This document shows positions 16,447 to 47,895 of a DNA stretch of 64,000 nucleotides, piece after piece. A model generated the notes under the pieces. The model ran no database searches, had not been told where the DNA came from, and saw only the letters and a list, made by a program, of their open reading frames with translations. The DNA comes from Clostridia bacterium (GTDB taxonomy: Bacteria > Bacillota > Clostridia > Christensenellales > Borkfalkiaceae): positions 86,964 to 150,963 of the forward strand of contig JAFTPU010000014.1 in NCBI GenBank assembly GCA_017463105.1, written 5' to 3'. The position numbers were made by a program, and so were the translations under genes. Positions within the stretch are counted from its first letter, which is position 1. Every line of letters begins with the position of its first letter.

Positions 16447-16534
16447 ATTGTTATCCTCATTTTAATGGGGCAGTATGTGTTGCGCGCTTTTCCGAGCAAC
16501 TTACCTCAGTAAATCATTGTTATACGGAGCTTTT

Positions 16535-31942: not shown

Positions 31943-32230
31943 TTACAACAAATAATAGGGCATATCTTCGCCGACGCTCGTACGGACGAAGCCGTTCTTT
32001 TGCGCGGGCTTTTTACACGTCGCCTTTTTTGTCGCGGGCTTTTTCGCCGACGTTTTCTTTGCCGCCGCCTTTTCCGCAGTCGACTGTTCCACGGGCGCGA
32101 CGAGCTTTTCGACGACCTGTTCGTCGGGTTTTTCGATCACGTGGCTGTTCTCCATATCGGGAGCTTCCGTTTTTACCTTCGAATAACCGTTGTTTTCCAC
32201 TCTCTTGATTGCGTTTTTACCGATTGGCAT
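31943..32230 (-). CDS. Lysine/alanine-rich 95-residue partner of the ParA-like ATPase
   Basis: Starts 14 bases inside the 3' end of the ParA-type gene, so the two are translationally coupled. Three parts are visible: a basic N-terminal segment (MPIGKNAIKRVENNGYSKVK), an acidic middle (EAPDMENSHVIEKPDEQVVE), and a low-complexity Lys/Ala/Thr stretch (residues 52-78) followed by a hydrophobic end (DMPYYLL). No ParB or HTH domain. ParA-type cargo positioning systems often pair the ATPase with a small, poorly conserved, partly disordered protein whose basic N-terminus stimulates ATP hydrolysis; this protein has that shape. Function is inference from context. Related small proteins might also accompany ParA genes that have nothing to do with compartments. 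Confidence 0.75.
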   Translation of the reverse strand: MPIGKNAIKRVENNGYSKVKTEAPDMENSHVIEKPDEQVVEKLVAPVEQSTAEKAAAKKTSAKKPATKKATCKKPAQKNGFVRTSVGEDMPYYLL

Positions 32231-33008
32231 ATTCCATGATCTCCTTCGTTAAATCGATATATTCCACCGCACTGCGGCTGGTTTTCTTATACGCCACGAC
32301 GGGTTTCGAATTATCCTGCGCCCATTCCACCGCACTGTCCACGCGGATATAGTTTTCGAACAGGCGCGCCCCATCCGTGTTTTTCAAGGTCTCCAACGTC
32401 TGCTTGAAATACTTCTTCCTCTCGTCCGCTTTCGTAATGGCGATCCCGAGCACGTTCAGATTCGGCGCGATCGTTTTCGCCTGATTGCAAAATTCGAACA
32501 TGTTCGCCAAACCGAACAACCCCCAAGGGCTTGCCTCGACGGGGATCACGAGGTAATCGGACGCACACATGATATTCATCACCCAACCGCCGAGCGTGGG
32601 CGGCGCGTCGATCAGAATATAATCGTAGTACCCTTTCGCCCTGACCCGTTCCAGACATTTTTTCAAAACGAACTCTCTCTGCCATTTGGAAAAGAGATCG
32701 AACTCTATCGAACTCATCAGCGAAGAGGAAGGGATAATGTCCAGCCCTTCGATACCCGTTTCCACAACGAAATCGGAAAGGTCTTTTTCCTCCTTGATCG
32801 CCGAATGGATATTTTTTCCGCTCTTTGCGTATTCGAGCGCCTGTTCCTCGTCGAAATAGGAAATGGTGAGATTGAGCTGCATATCGCCGTCGATCATCAA
32901 CACCTTTTTCCCAAGGGTCGCCATTGCGCAACCGACGTTGGAGCAGGTCGTCGTTTTGCCGCTGCCGCCCTTATTGTTCGCAAACGCGATCACCTTCGTT
33001 TTACTCAT
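32217..33008 (-). CDS. ParA/MinD-type ATPase, candidate microcompartment-positioning protein
   Basis: 263 residues. Deviant Walker A NNKGGSGKTTT with the signature Lys13 and Lys18, Walker A' MIDGDMQLNLT, Walker B YILIDAPPTLGG, and late Lys/Arg-rich residues (ITKADERKKYFKQ) of the kind that bind DNA nonspecifically in ParA proteins. No N-terminal HTH, so it resembles small ParA/McdA-like ATPases and not plasmid P1-type ParA. It lies 13 bp after the EutP-like gene at the distal end of the BMC operon, with no parB or parS-like repeat nearby. The likely role is spacing compartments along the nucleoid; that is inference. Confidence 0.88.
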   Translation of the reverse strand: MSKTKVIAFANNKGGSGKTTTCSNVGCAMATLGKKVLMIDGDMQLNLTISYFDEEQALEYAKSGKNIHSAIKEEKDLSDFVVETGIEGLDIIPSSSLMSSIEFDLFSKWQREFVLKKCLERVRAKGYYDYILIDAPPTLGGWVMNIMCASDYLVIPVEASPWGLFGLANMFEFCNQAKTIAPNLNVLGIAITKADERKKYFKQTLETLKNTDGARLFENYIRVDSAVEWAQDNSKPVVAYKKTSRSAVEYIDLTKEIMEYANR

Positions 33009-33021
33009 ATTTTCTCCTTTG

Positions 33022-33546
33022 TTATAACAGCCAAGCGTCCAGCTTTCCGCCTATCTCTTTCTTTTCCACCGTCGGTTTTTCCACCGTTTTCAACGCGAGC
33101 TTTTTCTTTTTTATCTCCTCGTCGTCGTTTAAAAACGCCGCCAATTCTTTGATCCCCTCGCCGGTGATCGAGCTGACGGGAAACACCTTTTTACAGCCGG
33201 CAAGCTTCAACCAACGGGTCACCCGTTCCACGTTCGCGTCGGGCTTGTCTATCCCCGTAACGATACCGATCGTCTCGCGGTTTACCATACTGGTAAGACA
33301 GGGCGAAAAAATGGAATACGGCTCGTTTGCAGAAAGCACCAGCCCCACCACGTCCGCCTCGTATGCGTACAAAGCGAGCGCGCCGCTTGTCTCCCGCCGC
33401 TCGGTATATTCCCCGGGAGTGTCGATCACGGTGTCGAGATAATTGACGTATTGCGTCTTGAAATATTTAATTTCTTCGCCGCGCAGAGCTTGCGTAAGCG
33501 TGGTTTTTCCCGCCGCCACTCTGCCGAACAACATAATCTTCTTCAT
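33022..33546 (-). CDS. eutP: EutP/PduV-like small GTPase of the microcompartment
   Basis: 174 residues. P-loop MLFGRVAAGKTTLTQAL (8-15), switch/G3 region VIDTPGEY, and an IVTGIDKPDAN G4-like motif in which NKxD has become GIDKPD. BMC-associated members (EutP, PduV) are linked to compartment maintenance or movement rather than catalysis. The usual fold ends near residue 145; here an extra Lys-rich tail (EEIKKKKLALKTVEKPT) leads to a hydrophobic end GGKLDAWLL that could dock on the shell or on the neighbouring ParA-type protein. Nine bases separate it from the EutS-like gene. Confidence 0.88.
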   Translation of the reverse strand: MKKIMLFGRVAAGKTTLTQALRGEEIKYFKTQYVNYLDTVIDTPGEYTERRETSGALALYAYEADVVGLVLSANEPYSIFSPCLTSMVNRETIGIVTGIDKPDANVERVTRWLKLAGCKKVFPVSSITGEGIKELAAFLNDDEEIKKKKLALKTVEKPTVEKKEIGGKLDAWLL

Positions 33547-33555: not shown

Positions 33556-33915
33556 TCAGGTTTTGGTCAACTCGCAGCAAGTATATCCGAGCTTGCCGAT
33601 AAAATATTCTCTGATCGCCGTAAAAGCGGATTCGACGGACGAAACGCTGCCCGTTATGATGAGGGTACCCGTGAATCTGTCCACGAACCCGATCTCCGCG
33701 CCCGAAGATTTCATTGCGATATCCGCCGCGATCACCGCGCTTTCGTAGGGAATCACCGTCAATACGCCGATCGCGCTTTTGGTGTAATCGGTCTGCGGAT
33801 CCAAGCCGAGCTTGGTGTACAGCGTTTCCCCGGGGTTTGCGATGATATGGCAAAGGGTGATCTGTTTACCGGGAACGAATTCCTGTATGATCGTCATTTT
33901 ATCTTTCAGTTCCAT
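33556..33915 (-). CDS. eutS: Circularly permuted BMC-H shell protein (EutS/PduU type)
   Basis: 119 residues. The opening RIIQEFVPGKQITLCHIIANP-like stretch (residues 8-27) is diagnostic of EutS/PduU, whose N-terminal strand forms a small barrel over one hexamer face. The permuted BMC fold follows (SAIGVLTVIPYESAVIAADIAMKSSGAEIGF, GTLIITG). A minor shell component, in PduU/EutS thought to bind accessory factors on the outside. Next to the EutP-like GTPase, as in pdu and eut operons where PduU/PduV neighbour each other. Confidence 0.93.
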   Translation of the reverse strand: MELKDKMTIIQEFVPGKQITLCHIIANPGETLYTKLGLDPQTDYTKSAIGVLTVIPYESAVIAADIAMKSSGAEIGFVDRFTGTLIITGSVSSVESAFTAIREYFIGKLGYTCCELTKT

Positions 33916-34012: not shown

Positions 34013-34798
34013 TCATCCGCCGATTTGGCACTTTAAACCGCTCTCTTCGGCTACGCTCAAAAGATATTCCATTCTTTCTTGCGTGGGAGGCTCGATTCCT
34101 TTTAACGAATAGTTTCTGTCCAAGCCCGCGTATTTGTCTTGTCCCAGCCTATGATAAGGCAACAGATGATGTTCTTTTACGCCTTTGAGCGTCGCCGCAA
34201 ACCTCGAGATCGCGCGGATCTCCTCCGCCGTATCGTTGAAGGTAGGCACGACGGGCGTGCGGACGATCAGCTCGACGTCGCTTTCCGCGATCTTCTTCGC
34301 GTTTTCCAAAATCAGTTCGTTGCCCGCGCGGGTGTATTCCCTGTGCTTCGCCGAATCCATATGCTTGATATCCATCAAATACAGATCGAGATAGGGCAAG
34401 ATCTGCCGTATGCTTTCAAAATCGGCGTTTGCCGTCGACTCCACCGCCGTGTGTAAGCCCGCGTCCTTGCAAGCGTGCAACAGATCGCGCGCAAATTCGG
34501 GCTGTGCGAGAATCTCCCCGCCCGAAAGCGTCACCCCGCCGCCGCTGCGACGGTAATAGTTGACGTCCGCAAGAATTTCGGGCAGGATCTCGGCGACCGT
34601 AACGTCCTTGCCGACGATTTTTTCCTTGCCGTTTTCGACGAGCGTTTGAATTTTATATTCCTGCGATTCGGGATTACAGCACCAAGCGCAACGCATATAA
34701 CAGCCTTTGAAGAACACGATCGTACGGATCCCCGGTCCGTCGTGGATCGAGAACCGTTGGATATTGAATATTCTTCCTTTGGTTTCGTATATGCCCAT
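34013..34798 (-). CDS. Glycyl-radical enzyme activating enzyme (radical SAM)
   Basis: 261 residues. GRIFNIQRFSIHDGPGIRTI is the standard GRE-activase opening; the radical SAM cluster motif is CYMRCAWC (CX3CX2C), followed by CNPES; SAM-binding GGEILAQPEF and later RTPVVPTFND are present. It installs the glycyl radical on Gly819 of the dehydratase encoded just upstream. Notably, the approximately 50-residue insert with two extra 4Fe-4S clusters (CxxCx2-5Cx3C pairs) seen in many diol/glycerol-type activases is absent: NPES runs directly into the KIQTLVENGKEKIVGKD segment. Confidence 0.94.
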   Translation of the reverse strand: MGIYETKGRIFNIQRFSIHDGPGIRTIVFFKGCYMRCAWCCNPESQEYKIQTLVENGKEKIVGKDVTVAEILPEILADVNYYRRSGGGVTLSGGEILAQPEFARDLLHACKDAGLHTAVESTANADFESIRQILPYLDLYLMDIKHMDSAKHREYTRAGNELILENAKKIAESDVELIVRTPVVPTFNDTAEEIRAISRFAATLKGVKEHHLLPYHRLGQDKYAGLDRNYSLKGIEPPTQERMEYLLSVAEESGLKCQIGG

Positions 34799-34870: not shown

Positions 34871-37402
34871 TTAAAAGCCTTGCTCGGTGCGGTTGATAAT
34901 ATCGTCCTGCAACGACCGCGACAGCGTCGTAAACAACGCGCTGTAACCCGCCACGCGGACGACGAGCGTCTTGTATTTTTCGGGGTTCTTTTGCGCGTCG
35001 AGCAACGTTTCTCGCGTGACGACGTTGAACTGCATGTGCATGCCCTTCTGATCGAAATACGAGCGGATAAGCGCCACGAATTTACTCAATCCCGCCATGC
35101 CCGCCAATGCGGAGGGATGGAATTTCTGATTCAAAAGCGTGCCGTTCGAAGCAATGCCCTGTTCGAGCTTCGCCACCGAGTTCGCCGTCGCCGTAGGTCC
35201 CTTCACGTCCCTGCCCGAAGCGGGACCGATACCGTCCGCAATCGGCGTAAACGCGAGTCTGCCGTCGGGCGTCGCGCCCGTCTGCGCACCGAGGGGCACG
35301 TTCGCGGATACGGGATACAAGCCCGCTTGGAAAATACCGCCGCGAGGGTTTTTATACTGCGGCAATTCTTTCGTATAGCTGTTCGCCACGTCGCGGGCGA
35401 ACATATCCACCTCGTAAATATCGTTGCCGTATTTGGGACACGTCTCGTCGATCAGCTTCTTGATCTCGCGATATCTCTTTTTCAGCGCGGGATCGACCGA
35501 ACCCGCCGTCGTCACTTCGTCGTAAATAGTACGCACCACGTCCGCCGTGATCTCGATACCCTGCTTTGCAAGCTGACAGGCAATGTCGTTCGTTACGCGC
35601 TCCGCCGCCGCGCCCTGCAAGCCGTAGCCGAAGTTCGCGTTCAGCGCGTCGCGGTATTCCGCCATCGTCACCTTCTTTTCTTCGAAAACAAGTTGCTTTA
35701 TCGCAATCAGACCGTCCGTGTTATTAGCGATACCGAAGCCCTGCGGTCCCGTGAAATTGTAGATCGCGCCGCCCTCCTGCAACGATTTGCCGCGACCGAT
35801 ACAGTCGTCGACCATACACGATTGGAAAGGAAGCGGGCAACGGGTCGCATGCGCCGCGTCGATCGCGTTGTTCGCGTTCACGAGCAATTTGATAAAATAG
35901 CTCTGTTGCGTTTTGTAAGCGTTATAAAATTCCTCGAACGTCGTCATTTTCGTGACGTCGCCCGTATCGGGACCGATCTTTACGCCCTTATCGTACCCGT
36001 TCGAGAACACCATTTCCATCGGACGGCACATGTTAAAGAACGCCGCGTCGTGCCAGCCGTCCGTCTTTGCGCCCTTCTGCGGCTCCACGCAACCGATGAT
36101 ACAGTAATCCCGCGCGTCCTCCAACGTGAGTCCCCGCGCCATAATGGAGGGAATGATGATCTCGTCGTTATAATAGGCGGGCAGACCCGTACCGAGACGC
36201 GTGAGCGCCGCCGCCTTGAGCAGGAAGGATTCGGGCGAACCGTTCCACACGCGCACGGAGATCGAAGGCTGGGGCAGAGGTACGTGCATCGCCGCCTCCA
36301 AACACATATAAGAAAGGTCGTTCGTCGCGTCCATGCCATGCTCGTTCTGTCCGCCGACGATCAGGTTTTGGAACATACCGTAGCCCGCAAACCCGTCCGC
36401 CGAGCCCGCGTCGCGCACCTTGTTGATATCGTTGAGCTTTACCCAAATACAGTCGATAAGCTCCTGCGCCTGCTCGAGCGTGAGCTTGCCCGCGTCGATA
36501 TCCTTTTTGTAGTAGGGATACATATACTGATCGAAACGCCCGGGCGAAATGGAATGTCCGCTCGACTCGATCTGCAACAGAAGCTGTACGAACCAAAAGG
36601 ATTGGCACGCCTCTTGGAAATCGGTTGCGGGGAATTCGGGCACGCGCGCACAGGTCGTCGCGATCTTTTCCAGCTCCGCCTTACGTACGGGGCATTTTTC
36701 CTTTTTCGCCATATCCTTGGCGAGCGCCGCATAACGCCTTGCGTACAGAATGACCGCTTCGCAGCTTTCGATCACGGCGTTTAAAAAGTTGCTTCTTTGT
36801 ACGTAGTCGCCGTCGCTGATCTCCAGCTTATCCAAAGCCGTCTGCGCCTCCGCGATGATCCCTCTGTACCCCTTTTCGAGTACCTTTTTATAGTTCACGT
36901 TTACGTGACCGATGCCGTTATAAAAATAGTTGCCGGGCGTGAACATACCGTGTACGGTAAACGCCTCGTACGCCTCGGTGGACATATTCGCTTTCGCCAG
37001 ATCGCTGCACGTTTTGCCCTTCCAATAGGGATATGCGGCGCGAAGCTCGGCTTTCGTCTTTTCGCTGATATAGAACGGGTCCGCGGCACGGGTAGCCACC
37101 GTTTCGAATTCCGCCTCCAACCATTCGTAGGAATATTCGGGGAATACCTGACAGCCGCGGGGCGCGATGGTCGCACTGCCGACGATAAGTTCCCCGTCTC
37201 GAATCACGATGGGGAGATTTTCAAGGATATGCGCAAACGCCGCGCTACGGCGACGAACGATCGGGAGCGATTCCGTCGCTTTATAGCTTTCCGTTACGAG
37301 CACGCCGCGCGCCGATTCGATCTCGGGCATTTTTTCGTAGAGATCGTTCACGAGCTTATCTATTCTCGCGCTTTTTTCAATTACGAATTTGATGTTTTCC
37401 AT
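34871..37402 (-). CDS. B12-independent 1,2-propanediol dehydratase (glycyl radical enzyme)
   Basis: 843 residues. Catalytic motif CIIGCVEPQ (Cys438, Glu440) and His166 in YNGIGHVNVN match the diol/glycerol dehydratase subgroup; the glycyl radical is Gly819 in VVRVAGYSALF. Converts S-1,2-propanediol to propionaldehyde and water inside the compartment. No N-terminal targeting extension is visible, so it may be encapsulated by binding other cargo. The activase follows 72 bp downstream. The upstream 139 bp carry an unusual row of five hairpins. The enzyme is oxygen-sensitive, consistent with an anaerobe. Glycerol as an alternative substrate cannot be excluded by sequence. Confidence 0.95.
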   Translation of the reverse strand: MENIKFVIEKSARIDKLVNDLYEKMPEIESARGVLVTESYKATESLPIVRRRSAAFAHILENLPIVIRDGELIVGSATIAPRGCQVFPEYSYEWLEAEFETVATRAADPFYISEKTKAELRAAYPYWKGKTCSDLAKANMSTEAYEAFTVHGMFTPGNYFYNGIGHVNVNYKKVLEKGYRGIIAEAQTALDKLEISDGDYVQRSNFLNAVIESCEAVILYARRYAALAKDMAKKEKCPVRKAELEKIATTCARVPEFPATDFQEACQSFWFVQLLLQIESSGHSISPGRFDQYMYPYYKKDIDAGKLTLEQAQELIDCIWVKLNDINKVRDAGSADGFAGYGMFQNLIVGGQNEHGMDATNDLSYMCLEAAMHVPLPQPSISVRVWNGSPESFLLKAAALTRLGTGLPAYYNDEIIIPSIMARGLTLEDARDYCIIGCVEPQKGAKTDGWHDAAFFNMCRPMEMVFSNGYDKGVKIGPDTGDVTKMTTFEEFYNAYKTQQSYFIKLLVNANNAIDAAHATRCPLPFQSCMVDDCIGRGKSLQEGGAIYNFTGPQGFGIANNTDGLIAIKQLVFEEKKVTMAEYRDALNANFGYGLQGAAAERVTNDIACQLAKQGIEITADVVRTIYDEVTTAGSVDPALKKRYREIKKLIDETCPKYGNDIYEVDMFARDVANSYTKELPQYKNPRGGIFQAGLYPVSANVPLGAQTGATPDGRLAFTPIADGIGPASGRDVKGPTATANSVAKLEQGIASNGTLLNQKFHPSALAGMAGLSKFVALIRSYFDQKGMHMQFNVVTRETLLDAQKNPEKYKTLVVRVAGYSALFTTLSRSLQDDIINRTEQGF

Positions 37403-37541: not shown

Positions 37542-38087
37542 TTAAAGCTGCTCCCAAAGCTCTGCGTGAGGGGCGGCGATAACAGAATACGACGAAAGCT
37601 GACCGCTCGTCTTAGCGTAGTTTGCGCCCGCTTCGACCGCCGCCGTCACGTCGCCCACTTCGCCCGTGATCATCACGACGCCCTTGCCGCCCATACCGCG
37701 GGATACGCGCAAATCGAAAACTTCCACGCGCGCCGTCTTTACCGCGATATCCGCCGCCTTGATCGTCGTTGCCGCCGAGAAGGTTTCTATCAAGCCCAAC
37801 GAGCCTTTCTTTTCGCTCTTTTGCGTACCGAAAAGCGCCGTGATCACCTGCTCGTCGATCCGACCCATTACGGAGGAATCGATCACGTAATTGCCGAATT
37901 TTTCCAGCACGTGGTCAACCGAAGCCGTTACGTTGGAGATCGAACCCGTCAGAATGATCTCGTATTTACCGGGACACGCGGGATGCGCGGAAACCATTTC
38001 CACGCCCGCGCTTTTCAGCGCCGCGTCCGTCGCCTCCACACCTTTGGGAATACTCTTTAATTCAATGACACCGATCGATTTAAACAT
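37542..38087 (-). CDS. pduT: Tandem-domain BMC-T shell protein, PduT-like with 4Fe-4S pore
   Basis: 181 residues with two BMC domains (1-90, 95-180). SAHPACPGKYEIILTG places a cysteine at residue 38, the same position as the cysteine of PduT that binds a 4Fe-4S cluster at the trimer centre; the CPGK context is conserved. It forms pseudohexameric tiles and probably lets electrons cross the shell. The ATG overlaps the stop of the PduS-like gene by one base, tying the two predicted redox partners together. Confidence 0.93.
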   Translation of the reverse strand: MFKSIGVIELKSIPKGVEATDAALKSAGVEMVSAHPACPGKYEIILTGSISNVTASVDHVLEKFGNYVIDSSVMGRIDEQVITALFGTQKSEKKGSLGLIETFSAATTIKAADIAVKTARVEVFDLRVSRGMGGKGVVMITGEVGDVTAAVEAGANYAKTSGQLSSYSVIAAPHAELWEQL

Positions 38088-39409
38088 TATGCTCTATCCT
38101 TCTCTATGATGATTTTCACGCCTTCTTCCACCGTGATTCTGCCCGAAACGGACGCGTATTGCGGGAGCGAAAGCCCCTCCGCGCTCTCGGCGATCTTGTC
38201 GCCTTTTTGCACGATATCGCCGTCCTTTACGATCGGTACGCTCGGCGCGCCGATATGTTGACGAAGCAATATCTCCACGCGCGGGAAATCGTTTTGCTCG
38301 CCGATATATTTCGCAAGCTTATCGAATTTTGCAACGCCCAGCACGCTCGCCCAACGCTCGGACGGGATCATTCTGTATTCCCGTTCGGGGGCAGGCTCGA
38401 CGTCCGTTTTACCGACGTAACGGAGCTTGTTTTTCGCAAGCAACGCCTTATACTCGTTGATGACCGCTTTCGGCGAAATCCCTTGGCAGCAAGCGAGCGA
38501 TTCGCACACGCCGCACCCGCAACAAAGGGTAGCGGACAACACCATCTGCGGCAATGCCGTCACCGCCGATTTCGCCGTACGCACCATTTTGTGCGGCTCG
38601 AGCGGATAGCCGAGCAAGGCTCTGGGACACATGTCCGTACACCTCGTACATTGACAGCACGCCGTTTCCGCGCGGGCGATCGACTTCGCTCCGTCGATAA
38701 ATTTCGAAACGATCGCTTCGCAATTGTCGGGCAGGATCAGAAGTCCCTTGGTCGTTTTGGTGATCACCGCCGTTTCGGGATCGATCGCCTTACCCATCGA
38801 CGGACCGCCGTCGAGCACGGTATGCTCTGCGGGAACCGCGATCCCGTTCTTTTCGAACAGCGCCCAAACGGGCGTGCCGATCGGGACCTTTACCACGATA
38901 GGCTCGGGCACATTTCCCGCCACCGTCACCCATTTTTCGACGAGCGGTTCGCCGCGCTTCACCATCTGCGCTACGTTGTACATCGTTTCGACGTTATAGA
39001 CGATCACGCCCGCGGTGATGGGAAGATTCCCCGGTCTCACCACGCGTCCCGTCGACTGATAGATAAGACTGATCTCGTCGCCCATCGGATATACGTCGGG
39101 CAACGTTTTTAAAAATATCTTATCCGCCAGCTTCGCCCCGTCGGTAAGACGGAGACGTTTTGCGGTATGCTCTTTTACGCAAAGCAGGGCGCGGGGAATA
39201 TTCGCATATTCCAGCACCTCTTTAATGCCCGTGAGCACCGCGTTTATTTCTTTATGTAAAAGCACGTAATCGGTATACAGCAACGGCTCGCATTCCGCCC
39301 CGTTGATCACGAGCGTGTCCGCCCCCTCGGCAAGCTTTGCATACGAGGGGAAGCCGGCGCCGCCCGAGCCGACGATCCCTGCTTCTTTCATAAGTTCTTT
39401 CAAGTTCAT
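38087..39409 (-). CDS. pduS: RnfC/PduS-like flavin and iron-sulfur NADH oxidoreductase
   Basis: 440 residues. FMN/NADH-binding N-terminal half (GIVGSGGAGFPSYAKLA, NGAECEPLLYTDYVLL, YPMGDEISLIYQ), a SLBB-like region, two 4Fe-4S motifs (CCQCTRCTDMCP; CCGCGVCESLACCQ) and a C-terminal PduS-type domain. In cobalamin-dependent operons PduS reduces B12; here the dehydratase is B12-free, so a role in re-oxidising NADH through the PduT-like Fe-S shell protein is more likely. One-base overlap with pduT. Confidence 0.92.
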   Translation of the reverse strand: MNLKELMKEAGIVGSGGAGFPSYAKLAEGADTLVINGAECEPLLYTDYVLLHKEINAVLTGIKEVLEYANIPRALLCVKEHTAKRLRLTDGAKLADKIFLKTLPDVYPMGDEISLIYQSTGRVVRPGNLPITAGVIVYNVETMYNVAQMVKRGEPLVEKWVTVAGNVPEPIVVKVPIGTPVWALFEKNGIAVPAEHTVLDGGPSMGKAIDPETAVITKTTKGLLILPDNCEAIVSKFIDGAKSIARAETACCQCTRCTDMCPRALLGYPLEPHKMVRTAKSAVTALPQMVLSATLCCGCGVCESLACCQGISPKAVINEYKALLAKNKLRYVGKTDVEPAPEREYRMIPSERWASVLGVAKFDKLAKYIGEQNDFPRVEILLRQHIGAPSVPIVKDGDIVQKGDKIAESAEGLSLPQYASVSGRITVEEGVKIIIEKDRA

Positions 39410-39455: not shown

Positions 39456-39704
39456 TCAATCTACGATACCGACGATCACCGCATCGCACGGTGCGTTCGT
39501 ATTGTGCAACGCCAAACGAGCGGAACTGCCCGTCGTGATGAGTACCGTTTCGCCGATACCTGCGCCCACGCTATCGACCGCGATAACGTATTTGCCCGTC
39601 AACTCGCCGTTCTCCATGATCTCCACTTCCATGAACTTCGAGCCGACCAACGCTTCCTGTTTTCTCGTGGAAACAATGTTTCCTCTGATAATGCCTCTTA
39701 ACAC
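39456..39704 (-). CDS. pduN: Pentameric BMC-P vertex protein (EutN/CcmL/PduN)
   Basis: 82 residues. MLRGIIRGNIVSTRKQEALVG, VAVDSVGAGIGETVLITTGSSAR (bases of the acylphosphatase-like OB pentamer) and NAPCDAVIVGIVD are diagnostic. Caps the twelve vertices of the shell. Four bases downstream of pduL. Confidence 0.95.
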   Translation of the reverse strand: MLRGIIRGNIVSTRKQEALVGSKFMEVEIMENGELTGKYVIAVDSVGAGIGETVLITTGSSARLALHNTNAPCDAVIVGIVD

Positions 39705-39708: not shown

Positions 39709-40365
39709 TCACTCCTTGACGACTTTTACCTTGAAGCCGTTGCCGATCCCCGCCGCATTGGCGTCGTCCGTATCAACGTGCATTTCCAAACGGAAATCGG
39801 GGTGCACGCGCACCTGCACGTCATACCATCTCGTACGGCGTTTGCCCTCTACGTCCACCGTTACCGTATCGCCGTCTTTCACGCCGAATTTCACGCCGTC
39901 GCTCGGGGACATATGAATGTGTCTGTTCGCGATGATACAGCCCTCTTTCAGTTGCACCACGCCCTTGGGACCGACGATCGTAACGCCCGCCGAGCCCTCC
40001 GTTTTGCCCGATTCGCGTACGGGCGGTTTTACCTTTAAAACGTAGGAATCGGTCATCGAAATTTCCACCTGCGATTTGCTTCTGAGCGGTCCCAATACGC
40101 GTACGCCTTCGATGGGTCGCATGGCGGGTCCTATCAGCGTCAAGGTCTCCTTGCACGCATACTGCCCCGGTTGCGACAGATCTTTGAGCGGCGTAAGCTC
40201 GTAGCCCTCGCCGAACAACGTGGCAAGATCCGCCTTGTTCAAATGAATATGTCTGTTGGATACGCCTACGGGCACTTCGTTGTCGCTTCCCGCCGACGCG
40301 CCGCCCTCCATATCCGCCAATACCTTTTTCACGAGTTCCGCAATTTTTGCACTTGAAATTTCCAT
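39709..40365 (-). CDS. pduL: Phosphate propanoyltransferase with encapsulation peptide
   Basis: 218 residues. Converts propionyl-CoA and phosphate to propionyl-phosphate and recycles CoA inside the compartment. Two PduL zinc-binding halves: VGVSNRHIHLNKADL ... LTPLKDLSQPGQYACKETLTL and IIANRHIHMSPSDG ... DGDTVTVDVEG. The first 21 residues (EISSAKIAELVKKVLADM) form a short amphipathic helix, followed by a Gly/Ala/Ser linker, the classic encapsulation peptide. An unusual hairpin row lies upstream. Confidence 0.96.
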   Translation of the reverse strand: MEISSAKIAELVKKVLADMEGGASAGSDNEVPVGVSNRHIHLNKADLATLFGEGYELTPLKDLSQPGQYACKETLTLIGPAMRPIEGVRVLGPLRSKSQVEISMTDSYVLKVKPPVRESGKTEGSAGVTIVGPKGVVQLKEGCIIANRHIHMSPSDGVKFGVKDGDTVTVDVEGKRRTRWYDVQVRVHPDFRLEMHVDTDDANAAGIGNGFKVKVVKE

Positions 40366-40547: not shown

Positions 40548-40820
40548 TTATTTAATAGCGGGAAGAAGTTTTTCAACGTCTGCGTGAGGACGAGGGATTA
40601 CGTGCGTTGCGATCACTTCGCCGAGCGCCGTCGCCGCTGCCGTACCTGCTTCCACAGCCGCTTTTACCGCGCCTACGTCGCCGCGGACCATAACGCTTAC
40701 CAAACCGCTACCGATCTTTTCGCTGCCGATAAGTACGACGTTCGCCGCCTTTACCATTGCATCTGCCGCTTCGATCGCCGCTACGAGACCTCTCGTTTCT
40801 ACCATGCCCAATGCTTCCAT
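40548..40820 (-). CDS. BMC-H major shell protein (PduA/PduJ type), copy B
   Basis: 90 residues, a single BMC domain: [40 protein letters not shown] with the pore loop KIGSG, and [15 protein letters not shown]. Forms the hexameric facets and pores that admit propanediol. It differs from the gene at 41209-41484 by the penultimate residue (A or S) and one extra N-terminal Met, and the DNA is also nearly the same, so the pair arose by recent duplication or is kept alike by gene conversion. GGAGG precedes the ATG. Confidence 0.96.
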
Positions 40821-40890
40821 TTTTAAAATCCTCCTGAGATTTTTTTGTTTTTCTTTTTTTATTTAAAGCTTTCGCTTTTAAATACCGTTT

Positions 40891-41163
40891 TTAACCCGTC
40901 GTTAAAAATTTCATAACGTCGGGATGCGGGCGCGCAATCACCTCGCACACTTTTACGTTGCCGACCTCCGCCGCCGCCTTTGCGCCCGCTTCGAGTGCCG
41001 CTTTCACGGCGGAAACTTCACCTTCGACCACAATCGTTACCAATCTGCCGCCAAGCCGTTTTTCCACGTGGATCAGCTTTACGTCTGCGGCTTTTACCAT
41101 TGCGTCAAGCCCGGTGATTGCGGCAACCATGGCTTGCACTTCCAGTAACGCTATTGCTTTCAT
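40891..41163 (-). CDS. BMC-H shell protein, divergent paralogue
   Basis: 90 residues: KAIALLEVQAMVAAITGLDA, LIHVEKRLGGRLVTIVVEGEV, CEVIARPHPDVMKFL. The pore loop is KRLGG instead of KIGSG and carries extra charge, so selectivity probably differs from that of the flanking copies. It sits between the two nearly identical major shell genes. Confidence 0.94.
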   Translation of the reverse strand: MKAIALLEVQAMVAAITGLDAMVKAADVKLIHVEKRLGGRLVTIVVEGEVSAVKAALEAGAKAAAEVGNVKVCEVIARPHPDVMKFLTTG

Positions 41164-41208
41164 TGTCTTGTTCTCCTTGCTTGTTTTTAAAACTCTTACC
41201 CCTTTCTA

Positions 41209-41484
41209 TTATTTGATCGAGGGAAGAAGCTTTTCAACGTCTGCGTGGGGACGAGGGATTACGTGCGTTGCGATCACTTCGCCGAGCGCCGTCGCCGCCG
41301 CCGTACCTGCTTCCACTGCCGCTTTTACCGCGCCTACGTCGCCGCGAACCATAACGCTTACCAAACCGCTACCGATCTTTTCGCTGCCGATAAGTACGAC
41401 GTTCGCCGCCTTTACCATTGCATCCGCCGCTTCGATCGCCGCTACGAGACCTCTCGTTTCTACCATACCTAATGCTTCCATCAT
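41209..41484 (-). CDS. BMC-H major shell protein (PduA/PduJ type), copy A
   Basis: 91 residues; sequence as for copy B (KIGSG pore, [18 protein letters not shown] end). AAGGAG lies ten bases before the first of two adjacent ATGs. Two gene copies probably raise the dose of the main facet protein. Confidence 0.96.
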
Positions 41485-41519
41485 TGTTGTAATTCTCCTT
41501 AAAATTTATTTTTTATTTT

Positions 41520-41837
41520 TTATCTTAATTTGTCTTTTCCGAGGGCGTTCAGATGGGCGAACCATTCGATTTCCTCGCTTTGTCTTGCTATCACTTTGTG
41601 CGTGATATACAATTCTCTCTTTTCGGCTTCGAGCTTTCCCGCCTGCACAGCCGCTTCCACTGCCGCCGCGTCGCCTTCGATCTTGATCGCCATCACGAGC
41701 GGAACGCGCGCGGAATCCCCCGCCGCAGGTTTGTTTTTGTCGATCGCCACCACCTTTACGTCGGCGGCTTTCGCCATTTTATCGGCAACTACGATAGCGG
41801 TAGCGAAGCCGAATACTTCTATCATGCCAAGTGCCAT
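41520..41837 (-). CDS. BMC-H shell protein with insertion and C-terminal extension
   Basis: 105 residues. BMC fold MALGMIEVFGFATAIVVADKMAKAADV with an enlarged mid-region (DKNKPAAGDSARVPLVMAIKI) and a charged tail (IARQSEEIEWFAHLNALGKDKLR). The changed loop replaces the usual pore motif, so pore size or partner binding is altered. Upstream-most of four consecutive BMC-H genes; 35 bp from the next. Confidence 0.9.
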   Translation of the reverse strand: MALGMIEVFGFATAIVVADKMAKAADVKVVAIDKNKPAAGDSARVPLVMAIKIEGDAAAVEAAVQAGKLEAEKRELYITHKVIARQSEEIEWFAHLNALGKDKLR

Positions 41838-41992: not shown

Positions 41993-43192
41993 TCATTTCG
42001 CTACGTAGCAGATCTTTATACCTTGCTGCGCCACGTTCACTTCCATCGCCTCGTTCAACTGATCGAGAGGGAATTCATGCGTGATCAGGTCTTTGATGGG
42101 AATGTTCATTTCCCTTGCCTGACGCAGGAACGCCATCGTCGTAGGATAGTCGTCCGCGCTGTAATCCCACGAACCGACGAGGTTGATCTCCTTGTTGCAC
42201 ATAGCAAAGTGCGGGTTGACGTTGTATTCGCCGTTGTTGACGAAGAAGCCCATTTCGCAAAGCCCGCCGCCGCGACGAATATATTCGTAAATATCCTTTG
42301 CCGCCGCAGGTGCGCCCGTGCACTGGAACGCAAAGTCCGCGCCCACGCCGTTCGCTACGCTCTTGACAAGTTTCACTCTCTCCTCGAGCGTCGTCAATTC
42401 ACGGAAGTTTACGATCGTTTTCGCACCCAGCTTTTTCGCCATATCCAAACGCTTGGGCGTGCCGTCGATCGCGATGATATGGTTGATACCCGCCGCGCGA
42501 AGCACGCTGATCATGACCAGACCTACGGGACCGAGACCCTGTACGAGCACCTTCGAATTGAAGTTGATAAGTCCCGTCGTATTCGCTCTCTTCAATGCGT
42601 GCACACATACGCATGCGAGCTCGAGCAACATTCTTTCCTTCAGATCAAGATCGTTCACGACGAAATACGTCGCGCCCTTGCCGCGGATCAGAAGATGGGT
42701 CGAGAACCAGCCCGTAAGCGGCTGACCGTCGCTGTGAGGAATAAGCCCGAACACGCCTTGCTTATCGCAAAGGTTGGTGTTTGCGGGATGATTACGGCAG
42801 ACGTGGCACTCGCCGCAGCTGATAACGCTGGTGACGATCTTGTCGCCCACTTTAATGGGCTTGCCCGCCGTATCGGTCTTGATGTTTTTGCCGAGATAAA
42901 CGATCTCGCCCGTACCCTCGTGACCGAGCGTTACGGGAATGATCCCGAAGGGATCGCCCTTCCATTCGTGCACGTCCGTACCGCAAACGCCGCATCCTTC
43001 GACCTTTACGAGAATGTCGTCGTCACGCAGCTCGGGAACGGGAAACTCTTTTACTTCGATATGTTTGGGGGAAGTAAGCATCGCCACTTTCGCAGTCTTG
43101 GGAATCGCGCCGTTCGAAGTCGACTTCGAACCGCCCATCTCGCCGAGTATCTTGCGAACGATACTTTCCACCTGAGAAGACGTAATATCCAT
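41993..43192 (-). CDS. Zinc-type alcohol dehydrogenase with N-terminal encapsulation peptide
   Basis: 399 residues. Residues 1-20 (MDITSSQVESIVRKILGEMG) form an amphipathic encapsulation helix like that of PduL, followed by a Ser/Asn linker. The MDR core starts near residue 33: catalytic zinc GCGVCGTDVHEW (Cys70) and GHEGTG (His91), structural zinc CGECHVC with a fourth Cys in NTNLC, and the NAD motif VQGLGPVGLV. Probably reduces propionaldehyde to propanol (or lactaldehyde to propanediol), regenerating NAD+ inside the shell. The usual BMC enzyme here, PduQ, is iron-type; no iron-type ADH is present in the window, so this one seems to replace it. Confidence 0.9.
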   Translation of the reverse strand: MDITSSQVESIVRKILGEMGGSKSTSNGAIPKTAKVAMLTSPKHIEVKEFPVPELRDDDILVKVEGCGVCGTDVHEWKGDPFGIIPVTLGHEGTGEIVYLGKNIKTDTAGKPIKVGDKIVTSVISCGECHVCRNHPANTNLCDKQGVFGLIPHSDGQPLTGWFSTHLLIRGKGATYFVVNDLDLKERMLLELACVCVHALKRANTTGLINFNSKVLVQGLGPVGLVMISVLRAAGINHIIAIDGTPKRLDMAKKLGAKTIVNFRELTTLEERVKLVKSVANGVGADFAFQCTGAPAAAKDIYEYIRRGGGLCEMGFFVNNGEYNVNPHFAMCNKEINLVGSWDYSADDYPTTMAFLRQAREMNIPIKDLITHEFPLDQLNEAMEVNVAQQGIKICYVAK

Positions 43193-43207: not shown

Positions 43208-44665
43208 TTAAATGATTCTGAACGACTCGGAAAGCACGCATCTTCTGTAACGCGTGAAGCTTCTCGCGCTCGTCAGACCTTCGCCCGTGGGACCCGCGAT
43301 CGTGAAGGTCGTATGACCTTCGCCGCCGAAGCCGATACCCGCGTACGAGGGTGCGTTTTTCACGAAGATCGTCGTTTCCACCGCCCGCGCGAAACGGGTA
43401 AGGTTGTCGATATTCTTCGAGTGCATATGCGCCGTATGTCTGCAACCGTGCTCCGCCTTCACCGCCAGATCGATCGCCTGATCGATATCGTTCACGCGCA
43501 CGATAGGCAGGATCGGCATCATCAGCTCGTTCTGTACGAAAGGATGTTCGAAATCCGTTTCGCAGATGATACAACGTACGTCGTCGCTCACCTTTACGCC
43601 GATCTTGGCAAGAAGCACCGCCGCGTCTCTGCCGACGCATTCGCGGCTGACCGTCTTTTTCACGATACCCGTTTTGGGGTTCTTGCTCTCGACGAGCACG
43701 ATCTCCGCAAGCTTGTTCGCCTGTTCGAGCGTGATCTTGTACGCGCCGTTTTTCAGCATTTCGGAAATGAGCTCGTCTGCGATATTCTTGAACGCAAACA
43801 CTTCTTTTTCCGCTATACAAGGCAAGTTGTTGTCGAACGAGCAACCGTCGATGATGTCCTTGCCCGCTTTCTTGATGTCCGCGGTATCGTCCACGATAAC
43901 GGGAGGATTTCCCGCGCCCGCACCGATCGCTTTTTTACCGCTCGAAAGCACGCTCTTTACCACGCCGGGTCCGCCCGTACAAACGAGCAGACGAATGTTG
44001 TTGTGCTTATACATGATTTGCGCCGTATCCAACGTGGGCTTGACCACCGAAGCCACGAGCACGGCGGGTCCGCCCGCCATAGCGCTCGCACGGTTTACGA
44101 GGTCCACCGCATAGTTGGAAGTCGCGATCGCATTGGGGTGAGGATTGAATACCACGCCGTTGCCCGCCGCGATCATGCCGATACTGTTGCAAATAACCGT
44201 TTCCGAAGGATTGGTGCTGGGCGTAATACTGCCCACGACGCCGAAGGGAGCCATTTCCGTGAGGGTCAGACCGTAGTCGCCCGTTTTCACCTGTGCCACA
44301 ACGTCCGCCGTACCGGGCGTTTTATCGGCGACGAGGATATGCTTTGCGGTCTTGTGTTCGACCCGTCCCATCTTCGTCTCCGCCACGCCGAGCTTCGCCA
44401 TGATCGGTGCTTCTTTACGGCACAGCTCGCGGATCGCGGAAATGATCTTTTCCCGCTCTTCGAGCGACATCGCGCGTACGGCTTTGTACCCTGCCGTCGC
44501 CGCGTCGATTGCGTCGTTCATATCCGCGTATATACCGATCAGCTTGCGTCCGTTATACTGCGTCGAATCCCAATCGCTTCTCGCGGTCGAAACGCCGCCG
44601 CCGAGGCTTTTGATCACGCTTGCGACCACTTCCTCGATCTGGGCTTCCGTCCAATTGATTGCCAT
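43208..44665 (-). CDS. pduP: CoA-acylating propionaldehyde dehydrogenase
   Basis: 485 residues. N-terminal encapsulation helix INWTEAQIEEVVASVIKSLG and Gly/Ser linker, then the PduP/EutE-type fold: MAPFGVVGSITPSTNPSET, IGAGAGNPPVIVDDTADI, FDNNLPCIAEKE with catalytic Cys283. Oxidises propionaldehyde to propionyl-CoA with NAD+. Encoded 12 bp after the aldolase and 15 bp before the alcohol dehydrogenase, the two enzymes that must share its aldehydes and NAD pool. Confidence 0.96.
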   Translation of the reverse strand: MAINWTEAQIEEVVASVIKSLGGGVSTARSDWDSTQYNGRKLIGIYADMNDAIDAATAGYKAVRAMSLEEREKIISAIRELCRKEAPIMAKLGVAETKMGRVEHKTAKHILVADKTPGTADVVAQVKTGDYGLTLTEMAPFGVVGSITPSTNPSETVICNSIGMIAAGNGVVFNPHPNAIATSNYAVDLVNRASAMAGGPAVLVASVVKPTLDTAQIMYKHNNIRLLVCTGGPGVVKSVLSSGKKAIGAGAGNPPVIVDDTADIKKAGKDIIDGCSFDNNLPCIAEKEVFAFKNIADELISEMLKNGAYKITLEQANKLAEIVLVESKNPKTGIVKKTVSRECVGRDAAVLLAKIGVKVSDDVRCIICETDFEHPFVQNELMMPILPIVRVNDIDQAIDLAVKAEHGCRHTAHMHSKNIDNLTRFARAVETTIFVKNAPSYAGIGFGGEGHTTFTIAGPTGEGLTSARSFTRYRRCVLSESFRII

Positions 44666-44677: not shown

Positions 44678-45427
44678 TTATTTACCGAGCGCCGCCAATA
44701 CCTTTTTGGTGATCGCTTCTACCAGCTCTTCTTTGCCGCAATTGCAAGCGGATTCTTCGCCGTAGTCGATACCGGGATGACGTCCGGGAAGATTCATCTT
44801 CTTTCTCAGATCCATAAGCTTTTTAAGCTGTTCGTTGGAGATCTCGTGCACTGCGCCGAGGTCCATTGCGTGCTTACAGATGATCGCGTTGAATTCCACT
44901 TCTTCCATGATGAAGAACGCTTTGGTAAGGTTGCAACCGACCGTCAACGCGCCGTGGTTACGAAGCAGGAACGCGTCGTGATTCTGCAGATACGGCTCGA
45001 GCGAATCGGGAATTTCCATGGTGGAAGGCGTACCGTAATCGCAGGTGGGCACGTTACCGATCGTCAATACCGCTTCGGGCAGAATATACTGATCGAGATC
45101 GATATCCGCAACCGTGAACGCCGTAGCAACGGGAGGATGCGCGTGAACGACCGCCGTAACGTCGGGGCGTTCCTTGTATACTCTCATGTGCATTTTGATT
45201 TCCGAAGAGGGATTGAGTTTACCCTCGATCTTTTTACCGTTCTCATCGACTTTAATGATCATGTCGGGGGTCAGGTCGCCCTTGGATACGCCCGTGGGGG
45301 TGCAATAGAATTCGTGATCGTTGATCTTAACGGAGATGTTACCGTCGTTCGCCGCCACAAAACCTTTCATCCAAAGCTTGTGACCTACTTCGCAAATTTC
45401 CTTCTTGATTTCGAATGGAGATTTCAT
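44678..45427 (-). CDS. Class II aldolase (rhamnulose/fuculose-1-phosphate) with C-terminal encapsulation peptide
   Basis: 249 residues from ATG 45427 (AAAGG upstream; a longer frame to 45628 runs into ackA and is rejected). FVAANDGNISVKI, TPTGVSKGDLTPDMI, zinc His pair VVHAHPPVATAF and LLRNHGALTVG are typical of FucA/AraD-type aldolases. The last 18 residues (KEELVEAITKKVLAALGK) after a Gly/Cys linker form a C-terminal encapsulation helix. Splits L-rhamnulose-1-phosphate (and probably L-fuculose-1-phosphate) into lactaldehyde and DHAP. The choice of rhamnulose as substrate comes from rhaA and rhaB in the same operon. Confidence 0.92.
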   Translation of the reverse strand: MKSPFEIKKEICEVGHKLWMKGFVAANDGNISVKINDHEFYCTPTGVSKGDLTPDMIIKVDENGKKIEGKLNPSSEIKMHMRVYKERPDVTAVVHAHPPVATAFTVADIDLDQYILPEAVLTIGNVPTCDYGTPSTMEIPDSLEPYLQNHDAFLLRNHGALTVGCNLTKAFFIMEEVEFNAIICKHAMDLGAVHEISNEQLKKLMDLRKKMNLPGRHPGIDYGEESACNCGKEELVEAITKKVLAALGK

Positions 45428-45456: not shown

Positions 45457-46647
45457 TTATTTTGTCAAATTGAGTGTGTCGAGGGCGATCATATACTCCT
45501 CGTTGGTGGGGATAACGTACGTTTTCACTTTCGCGCCCTTCGCGCTTACGTCCGCGATCTCCCCTCTGGGACAAGTAGCGTTTACGTTCTCGTCCATCTC
45601 TATGCCCAGCCACGACATATCCTTGCACACAGCCGCGCGAAGTTCTCTGTCGTTTTCGCCGATACCCGCCGTAAATACCAGCGCGTCGACGCCGTTCATT
45701 TCCGCCACGTACGAACCGATGATCTTCTTAATGTTATGTACCAAAATATCCAAAGCCAGCTTAGCCCGCGCGTTGCCGTTTTCCGCCGCTTCGCTCACGT
45801 CGCGGCAATCGCTCGAAACGCCCGAAACGCCGAGAAGCCCCGATTTCTTGTTCAGGATCGCGTCCGCCTCTTCCGCGCCGACGTTCTTGACCTTTTGGAT
45901 ATACGTTACGACCGTGGGATCGATCGCGCCGCTTCTGGTTCCCATCGGCACGCCGTCCTGCGGCGTGAAGCCCATCGAGGTGTCGATCGCTTTACCGTTC
46001 ACCGTCGCCGTAATGGACGAACCGTTCCCCAAATGGCAGGTGACGATCTTCGCGTTTTTATTGCCGAGAAGCTCCGCCGCCTTCGCCGCTACGTATCTGT
46101 GCGAGGTACCGTGGAAGCCGTAACGGCGGATACGGTAGTCTTCGTACAGCTCGTAAGGGATCGGGTAGATATACGCTTTCTCCTCCATGTCCGAATAGTA
46201 AGAGGTGTCGAACACGCCCACGTGGTTGATATTCGGCATGACCTCTTTACAAGCCTTGAAACCGCTGATCGCGGGAGGTCCGTGCAAGGGATTCAAGCCC
46301 ACGATACTTTCGAGGTATTTTATCTCGTCCGCACCGAGCGCCGCCGAAGCGCGGAGCTTTTCGCCGCCGTGAGCGAATCTGTGCCCCACCGCCGAGATCT
46401 CGTCTACGCTTCCGATCACCCCGAGCTCCTTATCGGTGAGAAGCTTCAGTACACATTCGATCGCCGCGCGGTGATCGGGGAAAGCCGCTTCCGTTTTATA
46501 ATCGGGTTTACCGGGACATTTGTGCGTTACCACGCCGTCAATGCCGATCCTTTCGCAGTTGCCTTTGGCGATCGCCGCGTTCGTATCCATATCGAAAAGT
46601 TGATATTTCAGCGAAGAACTACCCGCGTTTACAACCAAAATTTTCAT
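45457..46647 (-). CDS. ackA: Acetate/propionate kinase
   Basis: 396 residues of the ASKHA fold: VVNAGSSSLKYQLFD, HRFAHGGEKL, FDTSYYSDMEEKAYIYPIPY, RRYGFHGTSHRYV and FTAGIGENDRELR. Makes ATP from propionyl-phosphate (or acetyl-phosphate). Position in the BMC operon suggests propionate as the main product (PduW role), outside the shell since no targeting helix is visible. Full length. Confidence 0.94.
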   Translation of the reverse strand: MKILVVNAGSSSLKYQLFDMDTNAAIAKGNCERIGIDGVVTHKCPGKPDYKTEAAFPDHRAAIECVLKLLTDKELGVIGSVDEISAVGHRFAHGGEKLRASAALGADEIKYLESIVGLNPLHGPPAISGFKACKEVMPNINHVGVFDTSYYSDMEEKAYIYPIPYELYEDYRIRRYGFHGTSHRYVAAKAAELLGNKNAKIVTCHLGNGSSITATVNGKAIDTSMGFTPQDGVPMGTRSGAIDPTVVTYIQKVKNVGAEEADAILNKKSGLLGVSGVSSDCRDVSEAAENGNARAKLALDILVHNIKKIIGSYVAEMNGVDALVFTAGIGENDRELRAAVCKDMSWLGIEMDENVNATCPRGEIADVSAKGAKVKTYVIPTNEEYMIALDTLNLTK

Positions 46648-46650: not shown

Positions 46651-47895
46651 TTAACCTCTCTTGGCGATCACTTCTTTTTCGAATTTTTCGATCGCGTCGT
46701 ACCAATCTTCGCTCAGACCCTGACGACGGAGATATTCGTCCCAAACGTCCGCGTACGGCAGGAATTTCACGCGTTCGTGCATATACAGCACTTTCGTGAA
46801 GTTCGCTTCGTCCTGCAATTTTTTCATTTCCGCATACGGCTGCAGGATCGCGCAAAGAAGGGATTTTTGCATCGAGCGCACGCCCGTTACCCAAGCGCAG
46901 AGACGGTTGATGCTTGCGTCGAAATAGTCGAGCGCGATCATCACCTTTTCGTCCGCGTCGTTACGGATAATTTCTTTCGAAAGCTCTTTGAGCTCGTCGT
47001 CCACTACGATCACGTGATCGGAGTCCCATCTCACGGGACGGGATACGTGGAGCGCCACCTTATCGTAGAACGCAAGGAGGGAAGGGATCTTGTCCGAAAC
47101 CACTTCCGTGGGATGATAATGACCCGTGTCGAGCAGACAGCAGATACCGCGCGTCGCCGCATAGTTCTGATAAAATTCGTTGCTGCCCACCGTATAGCTT
47201 TCGATACCGATACCGAAAACCTTGCTCTCCACAGCGGGAATTACCCATTCTTTGTCGTAATCTTCCAAAATCTCGTCGAGGGATTTTTTCAGACGCAGAC
47301 GGGGTCCGAGACGGTCGGCGGGAATATCCTTGCACCCGTCGGGCACCCAAAGATTCACCGCGCAGGGGCTGCCCATCGCCTTACCCATTTCCGCAGCGAT
47401 CTTTAAACACGCTTTACCGTGCTTTACCCAAAACTTTCTCGTTTCTTCGTCGGGGGAGGACAGCGACAGACCGTCCTTCATCTTGGGGTGCGCGAAGAAC
47501 GTGGGGTTGAAATCTACCCCTTCCAGCCCGATCTCCTTCGCCCATTTTACCCACGGCTCGAAATATTTGTAGGTGTATTCGTCGCGATCGACCTTGCCTT
47601 TATCCTCGCCGAGGATCGCGTAGCACGCGTGCACGTTGATACGCTTTTTACCGGGCATCAGCGAAAACGCAAGCTTTGCGTCTTCGAACAGCTCCTCGGG
47701 CGTTCTCGCTCTGCCGGGATAGTTACCCGTCGTTTGGATACCGCCCGACAGCGAATCGCTGCCGTCGAAACCGATAACGTCGTCGCCCTGCCAACAGTGT
47801 ACGCTTACCGAGATCTTGCTCAATCTTTCGATCGCCGCTTCCGTATCGATCCCGAACGCCGCATACGCTTTCTTTGCTTCTTCATATCTGGACAT
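46651..47895 (-). CDS. rhaA: L-rhamnose isomerase
   Basis: 414 residues. VSVHCWQGDDVIGFDG (substrate and metal region), GIQTTGNYPGRARTPEEL, DFNPTFFAHPKMKDGLSLSS and LDTGHYHPTEVVSDKI are diagnostic for RhaA. Isomerises L-rhamnose to L-rhamnulose with Mn/Zn. Three bases from ackA, so tightly coupled. Length normal. Confidence 0.96.
   Translation of the reverse strand: MSRYEEAKKAYAAFGIDTEAAIERLSKISVSVHCWQGDDVIGFDGSDSLSGGIQTTGNYPGRARTPEELFEDAKLAFSLMPGKKRINVHACYAILGEDKGKVDRDEYTYKYFEPWVKWAKEIGLEGVDFNPTFFAHPKMKDGLSLSSPDEETRKFWVKHGKACLKIAAEMGKAMGSPCAVNLWVPDGCKDIPADRLGPRLRLKKSLDEILEDYDKEWVIPAVESKVFGIGIESYTVGSNEFYQNYAATRGICCLLDTGHYHPTEVVSDKIPSLLAFYDKVALHVSRPVRWDSDHVIVVDDELKELSKEIIRNDADEKVMIALDYFDASINRLCAWVTGVRSMQKSLLCAILQPYAEMKKLQDEANFTKVLYMHERVKFLPYADVWDEYLRRQGLSEDWYDAIEKFEKEVIAKRG

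Follow-up and report, generated by a model that had tools for sequence, protein, structure and literature searches.

Active spacing of microcompartments (BMCs) has been demonstrated for carboxysomes, where it depends on McdA and McdB. Adaptors of this kind typically meet their ATPase through basic N-terminal residues, and a C-terminal Trp of McdB is required for carboxysome association (PMC11321042, PMC10241942; all publications are cited here from excerpts of their text). The presence of ParA genes in BMC loci was already noted in 2014 (PMC4207490), and McdAB-like pairs have been predicted near PDU, EUT and GRM operons (PMC8262871, PMC11321042, PMC13052382), the McdB-like proteins at PDU and GRM operons having a Tyr or Phe within their last five residues (PMC11321042). 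PduV has been suggested as an aid in placing PDU compartments (PMC8262871). Whether catabolic compartments make use of ParA is left open in two reviews (PMC8262871, PMC13052382), and the Pdu compartment of Salmonella appears not to use a ParA system (PMC12866334).

The window analyzed here, a stretch of 64,000 nucleotides from a gut Clostridia bacterium, carries a gene pair of this general type, encoding a ParA-type ATPase and a small partner, within a BMC operon. The idea of McdAB-like pairs with a C-terminal Tyr or Phe at PDU and GRM operons is not new (PMC8262871, PMC11321042), and the statement in a preliminary description of this DNA that no such example had been described was too strong, as similar McdB-like proteins have been published for the vicinity of PDU and GRM operons (PMC11321042).

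The operon and its terminal gene pair

The operon lies on the minus strand and extends from the rhamnulokinase gene (49943) to the partner gene (31943), its distal end having the order EutS-like, EutP-like, ParA and partner (Table 1). Gaps of 9 bases (EutS-like to EutP-like) and 13 bases (EutP-like to ParA) are followed by a 14-base overlap of the ParA and partner ORFs (32217-32230, ORF coordinates), and the positions and spacings given in the preliminary description were exact to the base. The EutP-like protein exceeded the cut-off of TIGR02528 (148.9 versus 138.35 bits), while the EutS-like protein scored below that of its NCBIfam model (110.6 versus 123 bits). Published GRM5 loci contain a pfam00596 aldolase, a pfam00107/08240 reductase, a glycyl-radical enzyme and homologues of PduS and PduT, together with an activating enzyme lacking the ferredoxin insert pfam00037 (PMC6325248). 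All of these were present in the window (PF00596, PF00107, PF08240, PF02901, PF01228, an RnfC-type protein and a two-domain BMC protein), with substrates assigned by inference, and the activating enzyme matched only Radical_SAM and Fer4_12 at a threshold of 0.01, without the insert. The operon thus fits a GRM5-type locus, in agreement with the published description. A histidine phosphatase gene (31266-31910), located 33 bases beyond the partner, gave no tblastn match in 80 related loci, and the conserved block therefore stops at the partner.

Two further features of the window were observed. The genes at 40548-40820 and 41209-41484 encode near-identical EutM-like BMC-H proteins on either side of a different third one. 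Positions 9281-20926 hold genes for large putative lipoproteins, one of which contains a stretch resembling thioredoxin; encoded beside them are an FeS protein of membrane type and another thioredoxin-like protein (all named by eye).

Table 1. Genes of the rhamnose operon and the terminal ATPase/partner pair (window coordinates).
Feature	Position	Strand	Basis
Partner (McdB-like adaptor), 95 aa: MPIGKNAIKR N-terminus, K/A/T/P-rich linker, GEDMPYYLL C-terminus	31943..32230	-	Tail pattern in 78/78 partners
ParA-type ATPase, 263 aa, ATG start, deviant Walker A (Lys13, Lys18)	32217..33008	-	Pfam AAA_31 1.5e-52; 24-row alignment
EutP/PduV-type GTPase; lysine-rich linker leading to a C-terminal KLDAWLL tail that resembles the partner's	33022..33546	-	Pfam PduV-EutP 2.3e-51; TIGR02528 over cut-off
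EutS-like BMC shell protein	33556..33915	-	Pfam BMC 3.5e-12; NCBIfam EutS below cut-off
Glycyl-radical activating enzyme (radical SAM)	34013..34798	-	Pfam
Glycyl-radical enzyme, probable 1,2-propanediol dehydratase (substrate deduced from operon)	34871..37402	-	PF02901, PF01228
Two-BMC-domain shell protein, resembling PduT in location and domains; no PduT model matched above cut-off	37542..38087	-	Pfam
PduS/RnfC-like flavin and FeS protein; no PduS-specific model passed	38087..39409	-	Pfam
Pentameric vertex protein (EutN_CcmL)	39456..39704	-	PF03319 1e-27
PduL-type phosphotransacylase	39709..40365	-	Domain match
Four BMC-H shell genes, starts 40548, 40891, 41209, 41520	40548..41837	-	PF00936
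Zinc alcohol dehydrogenase, likely lactaldehyde reductase (inferred)	41993..43192	-	PF00107, PF08240
CoA-acylating aldehyde dehydrogenase	43208..44665	-	Domain match
Class II aldolase, FucA/RhaD-type judged by location; no named NCBIfam subfamily above cut-off	44678..45427	-	PF00596
Acetate/propionate kinase	45457..46647	-	Domain match
L-rhamnose isomerase	46651..47895	-	Domain match
GDSL-type lipase/acylhydrolase	47916..48548	-	Domain match
Rhamnulokinase	48561..49943	-	TIGR02627 476 bits, below its cut-off of 528

The Walker A motif of the ATPase, NNKGGSGKTT, follows the deviant pattern KGGxxGK[ST] of ParA/MinD (A/D) ATPases; Lys13 and Lys18, to which the preliminary description had drawn attention, are invariant across 24 aligned relatives, and apart from AAA_31 the only Pfam matches were to P-loop families. 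The absence of a nearby parB, also claimed earlier, was borne out on a wider scale, as the window genome assembly (80% complete) contained no ParB_N domain; nor was a second ParA found in it at E 1e-5. The window lineage may be without chromosomal ParAB.

With each species represented by a single genome, a scan returned 255 ParA relatives, the best 80 of which (64-90% identity) were studied. A partner ORF was found downstream of ParA in 78 of these best 80 (all but L077 and L080), its start offset from the ParA end by -13 in 65 loci and by -25 in 13, and in 18 of 23 further Lachnospiraceae ParA loci. As the partner follows ParA in 78/80 loci although its middle is barely conserved and its linker highly variable in length, the pair appears genuine, beyond chance. 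Partner starts were located by matching M.[VI]G[KS], which makes those N-terminal positions selected; the remaining N-terminal positions and the tail were unselected. Of the 78 partners, 75 have Ile and 3 have Leu at position 8, 76 have Arg and 2 have Lys at position 10, and 72 keep the N-terminal pattern in full. The C-terminal pattern [LM]Px[YWHF]L[LM] was present in all 78 partners of the best 80 ParA loci, with Tyr (56), Trp (10), His (10) or Phe (2) at position -3. Tyr or Phe occurs within the last five residues of 60/78 and Trp only in 8/78, while the 10/78 with none of the three have His at position -3. In the 18 partners from the further loci the tail pattern fitted 13, the five off-pattern tails being IPTYLL, IPVYLL, LPIFLR, MPIYLF and MPVYYF.

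The frequency of this tail as a chance ending was assessed with 5579 ORFs of at least 60 aa in 96 loci, 107 of which end in the pattern. The N-terminal pattern automatically classed 81 of the 107 as partners; the other 26, read singly, comprised 6 partners with extended starts, 19 EutP and 1 antisense chance match. A common chance ending was rejected on the strength of that one chance match among the 26 read. Judged from these comparisons, the partner is a genuine protein family.

No partner was found beside ParA in L077, L080, L088, L090, L096 and L097, which form one supported ParA clade, nor in a seventh locus, L124. Four of the six loci of the clade carry GRM5-type BMC genes on the same stretch of DNA. 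A degenerate DNA tail pattern was run over 12 genomes, 6 of them without an adjacent partner, and gave 15 matches against 8 for the reversed control, indicating low specificity; it recovered the adaptor in G000 (the window genome), G013, G001 and G004 and missed the known adaptors of G118 (ending MPIYLF) and G055 (ending LPTFLM). The other tail matches that were translated proved to be short or unrelated frames, and in the partnerless genomes none was partner-like, with a pattern that misses some known adaptors. A partner hidden elsewhere in these genomes was thus sought with imperfect sensitivity and none was found.

Several neighboring genes were recorded in passing. A regulator-like gene (named by eye) follows ParA in L077, L080, L096, L097 and L124, the first four also having rhamnose genes. 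An iron-containing alcohol dehydrogenase, which we take to be possibly PduQ-like, follows the pair in L066 (9114-10259), L067 (9223-10368) and L103, identified by Pfam in L066 and by eye in the others. In L024, L025, L026 and L029 a protein of 935-950 aa with PFWSW near its start lies downstream of the partner, and in our estimation it resembles family 106 rhamnosidases.

Co-occurrence with microcompartment genes

Shell, PduL or EutP genes were found near ParA in 63 of the 80 loci, within the DNA retrieved around ParA. The genomes of the 17 loci without nearby BMC genes, together with those of L081 and L024, were all BMC-positive by PF00936 (19/19). Among 250 Lachnospiraceae genomes, 28 were ParA-positive (331-518 bits, the next score down being 171) and 74 BMC-positive, and all 28 of the former were among the latter (hypergeometric p 2e-17; here and below the p-values treat genomes as independent although they are related, so that independence is overstated). 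In 15 of the 28, ParA was remote, that is, on another contig or more than 400 kb from the shell genes among the matches listed. The flanks of about 3-10 kb around 14 of these 15 held no BMC, PduL or EutP match, although draft contigs may hide nearness; in the flank of G244, PduL- and RnfC-like matches were located 6-8 kb from ParA. All 14 Lachnospiraceae genomes with remote ParA were BMC-positive (p 1e-9, or 9e-8 when three genomes known beforehand are removed).

In the window's family (141 genomes), 32 genomes were ParA-positive and 34 BMC-positive, all 32 having both and only G653 and G678 being BMC-positive without ParA; eight of eight same-genus genomes without ParA were also without BMC genes, among the genomes listed. 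Co-occurrence in this family is partly plain linkage, since the pair lies inside the operon. A sample of 291 genomes of the class contained 86 BMC-positive and 3 ParA-positive genomes, the latter all BMC-positive and including the window genome. Homologues were therefore not found mostly in BMC-free genomes, ParA-positive genomes being BMC-positive in 19/19, 28/28, 32/32 and 3/3 cases, in sets that overlap (three genomes are in both the 19 and the 28, and the window genome is in both the 32 and the 3). The BMC-linked ATPase and adaptor pair proposed in the preliminary description is strongly supported by this association.

The reverse does not hold, as 46 of the 74 BMC-positive Lachnospiraceae were without this ParA, and BMCs can therefore manage without it. 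A GRM5-type aldolase at 52% identity was found in 26/28 ParA-positive and 25/46 ParA-negative BMC-positive Lachnospiraceae (p 6e-4), with corresponding counts of 27 and 28 at 50% identity and 24 and 23 at 54% (each p < 0.003). These counts take the best match anywhere in the genome, and 10 BMC-negative genomes were also positive at 52%; 25 of the 51 aldolase-bearing BMC genomes were without this ParA. On this evidence the cargo is likely a GRM5-type compartment like that of the window.

A proposed positioning system and its alternatives

The pair is a candidate ParA-type positioning system for a rhamnose/propanediol (GRM5-type) microcompartment, a reading that we consider likely and that draws on the observed gene order, end motifs, BMC co-occurrence and EutP tail. 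The ATP-bound ParA would bind the nucleoid, and its ATP hydrolysis would be set off when it is bound by the conserved basic N-terminus of the partner (MxΨGKxxIxR). The partner tail, typically [DE][LM]PxYLL, would attach to the outside of the compartment, the two ends being joined by a positively charged and presumably disordered linker. Release and rebinding of ParA would then distribute the compartments across the nucleoid in the way known for carboxysomes with McdA and McdB. Counting against this are the seven partnerless ParA loci, the 46 BMC-positive Lachnospiraceae without this ParA, the ten tails without Tyr, Phe or Trp and the five off-pattern tails of more distant partners, as well as the report that Salmonella Pdu compartments are indifferent to ParA, MinD and added McdAB (PMC12866334).

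It is also conceivable that the lysine-rich linker binds DNA itself as a passive nucleoid tether, with ParA only modulating it, which would be compatible with positioning. The PHA-granule proteins PhaF and PhaM, with their histone-like tails, provide a model for such a tether. Linkers consist of 19% Lys, 18% Ala and 1.4% Arg, and their net charge is positive in 73/77 (two partners with a ParB_N domain left out, the window added), that of the window linker being +5; the acidic middle of the preliminary description exists locally, within a linker that is net positive as a whole. In Pfam and NCBIfam (the Pfam query lacking the first Met) the partner matched only low-complexity families below their cut-offs, among them the histone H1-like HC2 with a weak 23.8 bits (cut-off 40). 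One to three copies of RGRKP, which look to us like DNA-binding AT-hooks, occur in the linkers of L060, L069 and L087 (3/78), and the L069 partner exceeded the cut-off of Pfam RBR, an RNA-binding region (31 versus 24 bits). These motifs hint that some linkers may contact nucleic acid. However, net charge ranges from -2 to +18 with four linkers non-positive, low-complexity matches are weak evidence, and a tether leaves both the tightly conserved N-terminus and the neighboring ParA gene unexplained. We regard a passive tether as unlikely.

The window EutP extends past its GTPase domain into a lysine-rich linker and then KLDAWLL. An adaptor-like tail (LDTWLL, LATWLL, LPTWLL or similar) was present in 20 of 69 EutP rows, the window included, all in one clade of 22 rows in which L047 and L051 lack it; at least three changes are needed on the EutP tree, such as a gain plus two losses, which is compatible with a single gain. 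EutP appears to be a second protein that carries a similar tail of its own, and the two tails point by inference to a shared docking site. The preliminary description had taken the EutP-like GTPase or an EutS-type shell protein as the link to the compartment. This was not sustained, as the partner tail is unchanged in loci where the retrieved DNA contains neither gene, and EutP as a necessary bridge was dropped because partners without a nearby EutP retain the tail.

That EutP adjoins ParA and has a similar tail in the window's clade, so that the docking site may be common, would also suit a role of the pair in governing nucleation, fusion or EutP activity instead of cellular place, and in E. 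coli the overexpression of EutP reportedly interfered with the assembly of Eut shells (PMC4827028). Such control of assembly or number seems improbable, as the placing of cargo is the role described for ParA/MinD ATPases and their partners (PMC10241942) and the pair also occurs in loci without a nearby EutP. A broader proposal is offered tentatively, as perhaps slightly more doubtful than probable: the LPxYLL-type tail could be a transferable docking signal for the metabolosome shell exterior, used by the ParA adaptor throughout, of which EutP acquired a version (LDTWLL, LPTWLL) in one clade on its own lysine-rich linker, sharing a shell site and a positioning or maturation circuit with the adaptor, while adaptor middles (disordered linker or ParB_N) swap between constant ends.

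The ATPase itself resembles DNA partition proteins. Its profile scored 131 bits on the ParA structure 8ray, 114.3 on Soj (6iub) and 62.1 on 6noo, the one named McdA structure in the comparison, on which the distance from McdA rests; it was thus not closer to McdA than to other ParA proteins. The ATPase would act like McdA, but its recruitment was probably a separate one, from ParA/Soj stock. Pfam detected a ParB_N domain between the usual ends of two partners (L068:8779-9321 and L073:8779-9423); the window partner and six further ones, scanned likewise, gave no match to a ParB or helix-turn-helix domain. L068 and L073 sit beside L066 and L067, which are without ParB_N, and a gain of the domain is therefore as likely as its retention. 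ParB ancestry of the adaptor was considered, and with ParB_N only in these two of the nine scanned no conclusion was drawn.

A chromosome, plasmid or integrated-element partition system that stands in the operon by chance would account for the likeness to Soj and ParA among solved structures, for the two ParB_N partners and for the lack of another ParA (1e-5) or ParB_N in the window assembly. It is nevertheless very improbable. Relatives reached at most 40% identity on plasmids and 36% in phages, all counted matches being below 60% (among the matches listed), against 64-90% in the 80 loci; presence of the pair tracks BMC genes, and the seven partners without a ParB or helix-turn-helix domain include that of the window. 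As 109 of the 141 same-family genomes were without this ParA at 1e-60, it is not a general chromosome system. A mobile partition system was likewise rejected, the plasmid, phage and viral-contig searches giving only distant ParA proteins or none; no relative was confirmed when viral contigs were scanned with a peptide pattern. Finally, a chance low-complexity frame, with ParA partnering another protein, perhaps EutP, might be suspected from the low-complexity middle and the seven partnerless loci, but conservation of the tail (78/78) and full N-terminal pattern (72/78) despite variable linkers brings it close to refutation.

Comparison with known systems

The family gives a clear test case for ParA use by catabolic compartments: the pair is well delimited, it has two short end motifs, and its link to BMC genes holds even at separate loci. 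If the tail binds shells, it could serve as a small tag for bringing proteins onto the exteriors of engineered compartments.

The pair resembles the McdAB systems of alpha- and beta-carboxysomes in having a ParA/MinD ATPase and a small adaptor at a BMC locus and an aromatic-bearing, conserved C-terminus (PMC11321042), the adaptor gene standing beside that of the ATPase in 78/80 and 18/23 loci. It differs in that the compartment is a catabolic one of GRM5 type, the tail is LPxYLL and not a Trp motif, an invariant C-terminal Trp being absent from the partner family, and the ATPase scores lower on 6noo (62 bits) than on ParA (131) or Soj (114). The window adaptor is likened to McdB by gene layout and tail description. 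With ParABS (Soj/Spo0J) it shares the ATPase, closest to ParA and Soj by sequence, and ParB_N in two adaptors; unlike ParABS, seven other adaptors have no ParB or helix-turn-helix domain, and presence follows BMC genes. Among the EutP/PduV GTPases of BMC operons, the EutP of one clade is set apart by its lysine-rich linker and adaptor-like tail.

A further likeness in print is to metabolosome McdAB-like pairs, in which a ParA-like protein and an adaptor with a terminal Tyr or Phe lie near the operons; the window partner ends MPYYLL, with a Tyr within its last five residues (PYYLL), and is encoded within a BMC operon. Those McdB-like proteins may belong to the window partner family, as far as text descriptions allow comparison. 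The excerpts of the papers on them (PMC8262871, PMC11321042, PMC13052382) do not mention remote-locus co-occurrence, the EutP tail or ParB_N adaptors, and the wider literature search, with figures and many subscription papers outside it, gave no description of the Clostridia family by sequence, of separate-locus co-occurrence or of the EutP tail. What is new in comparison with these systems is the EutP tail, the ParB_N domain in two partners and an ATPase closer to Soj than to McdA.
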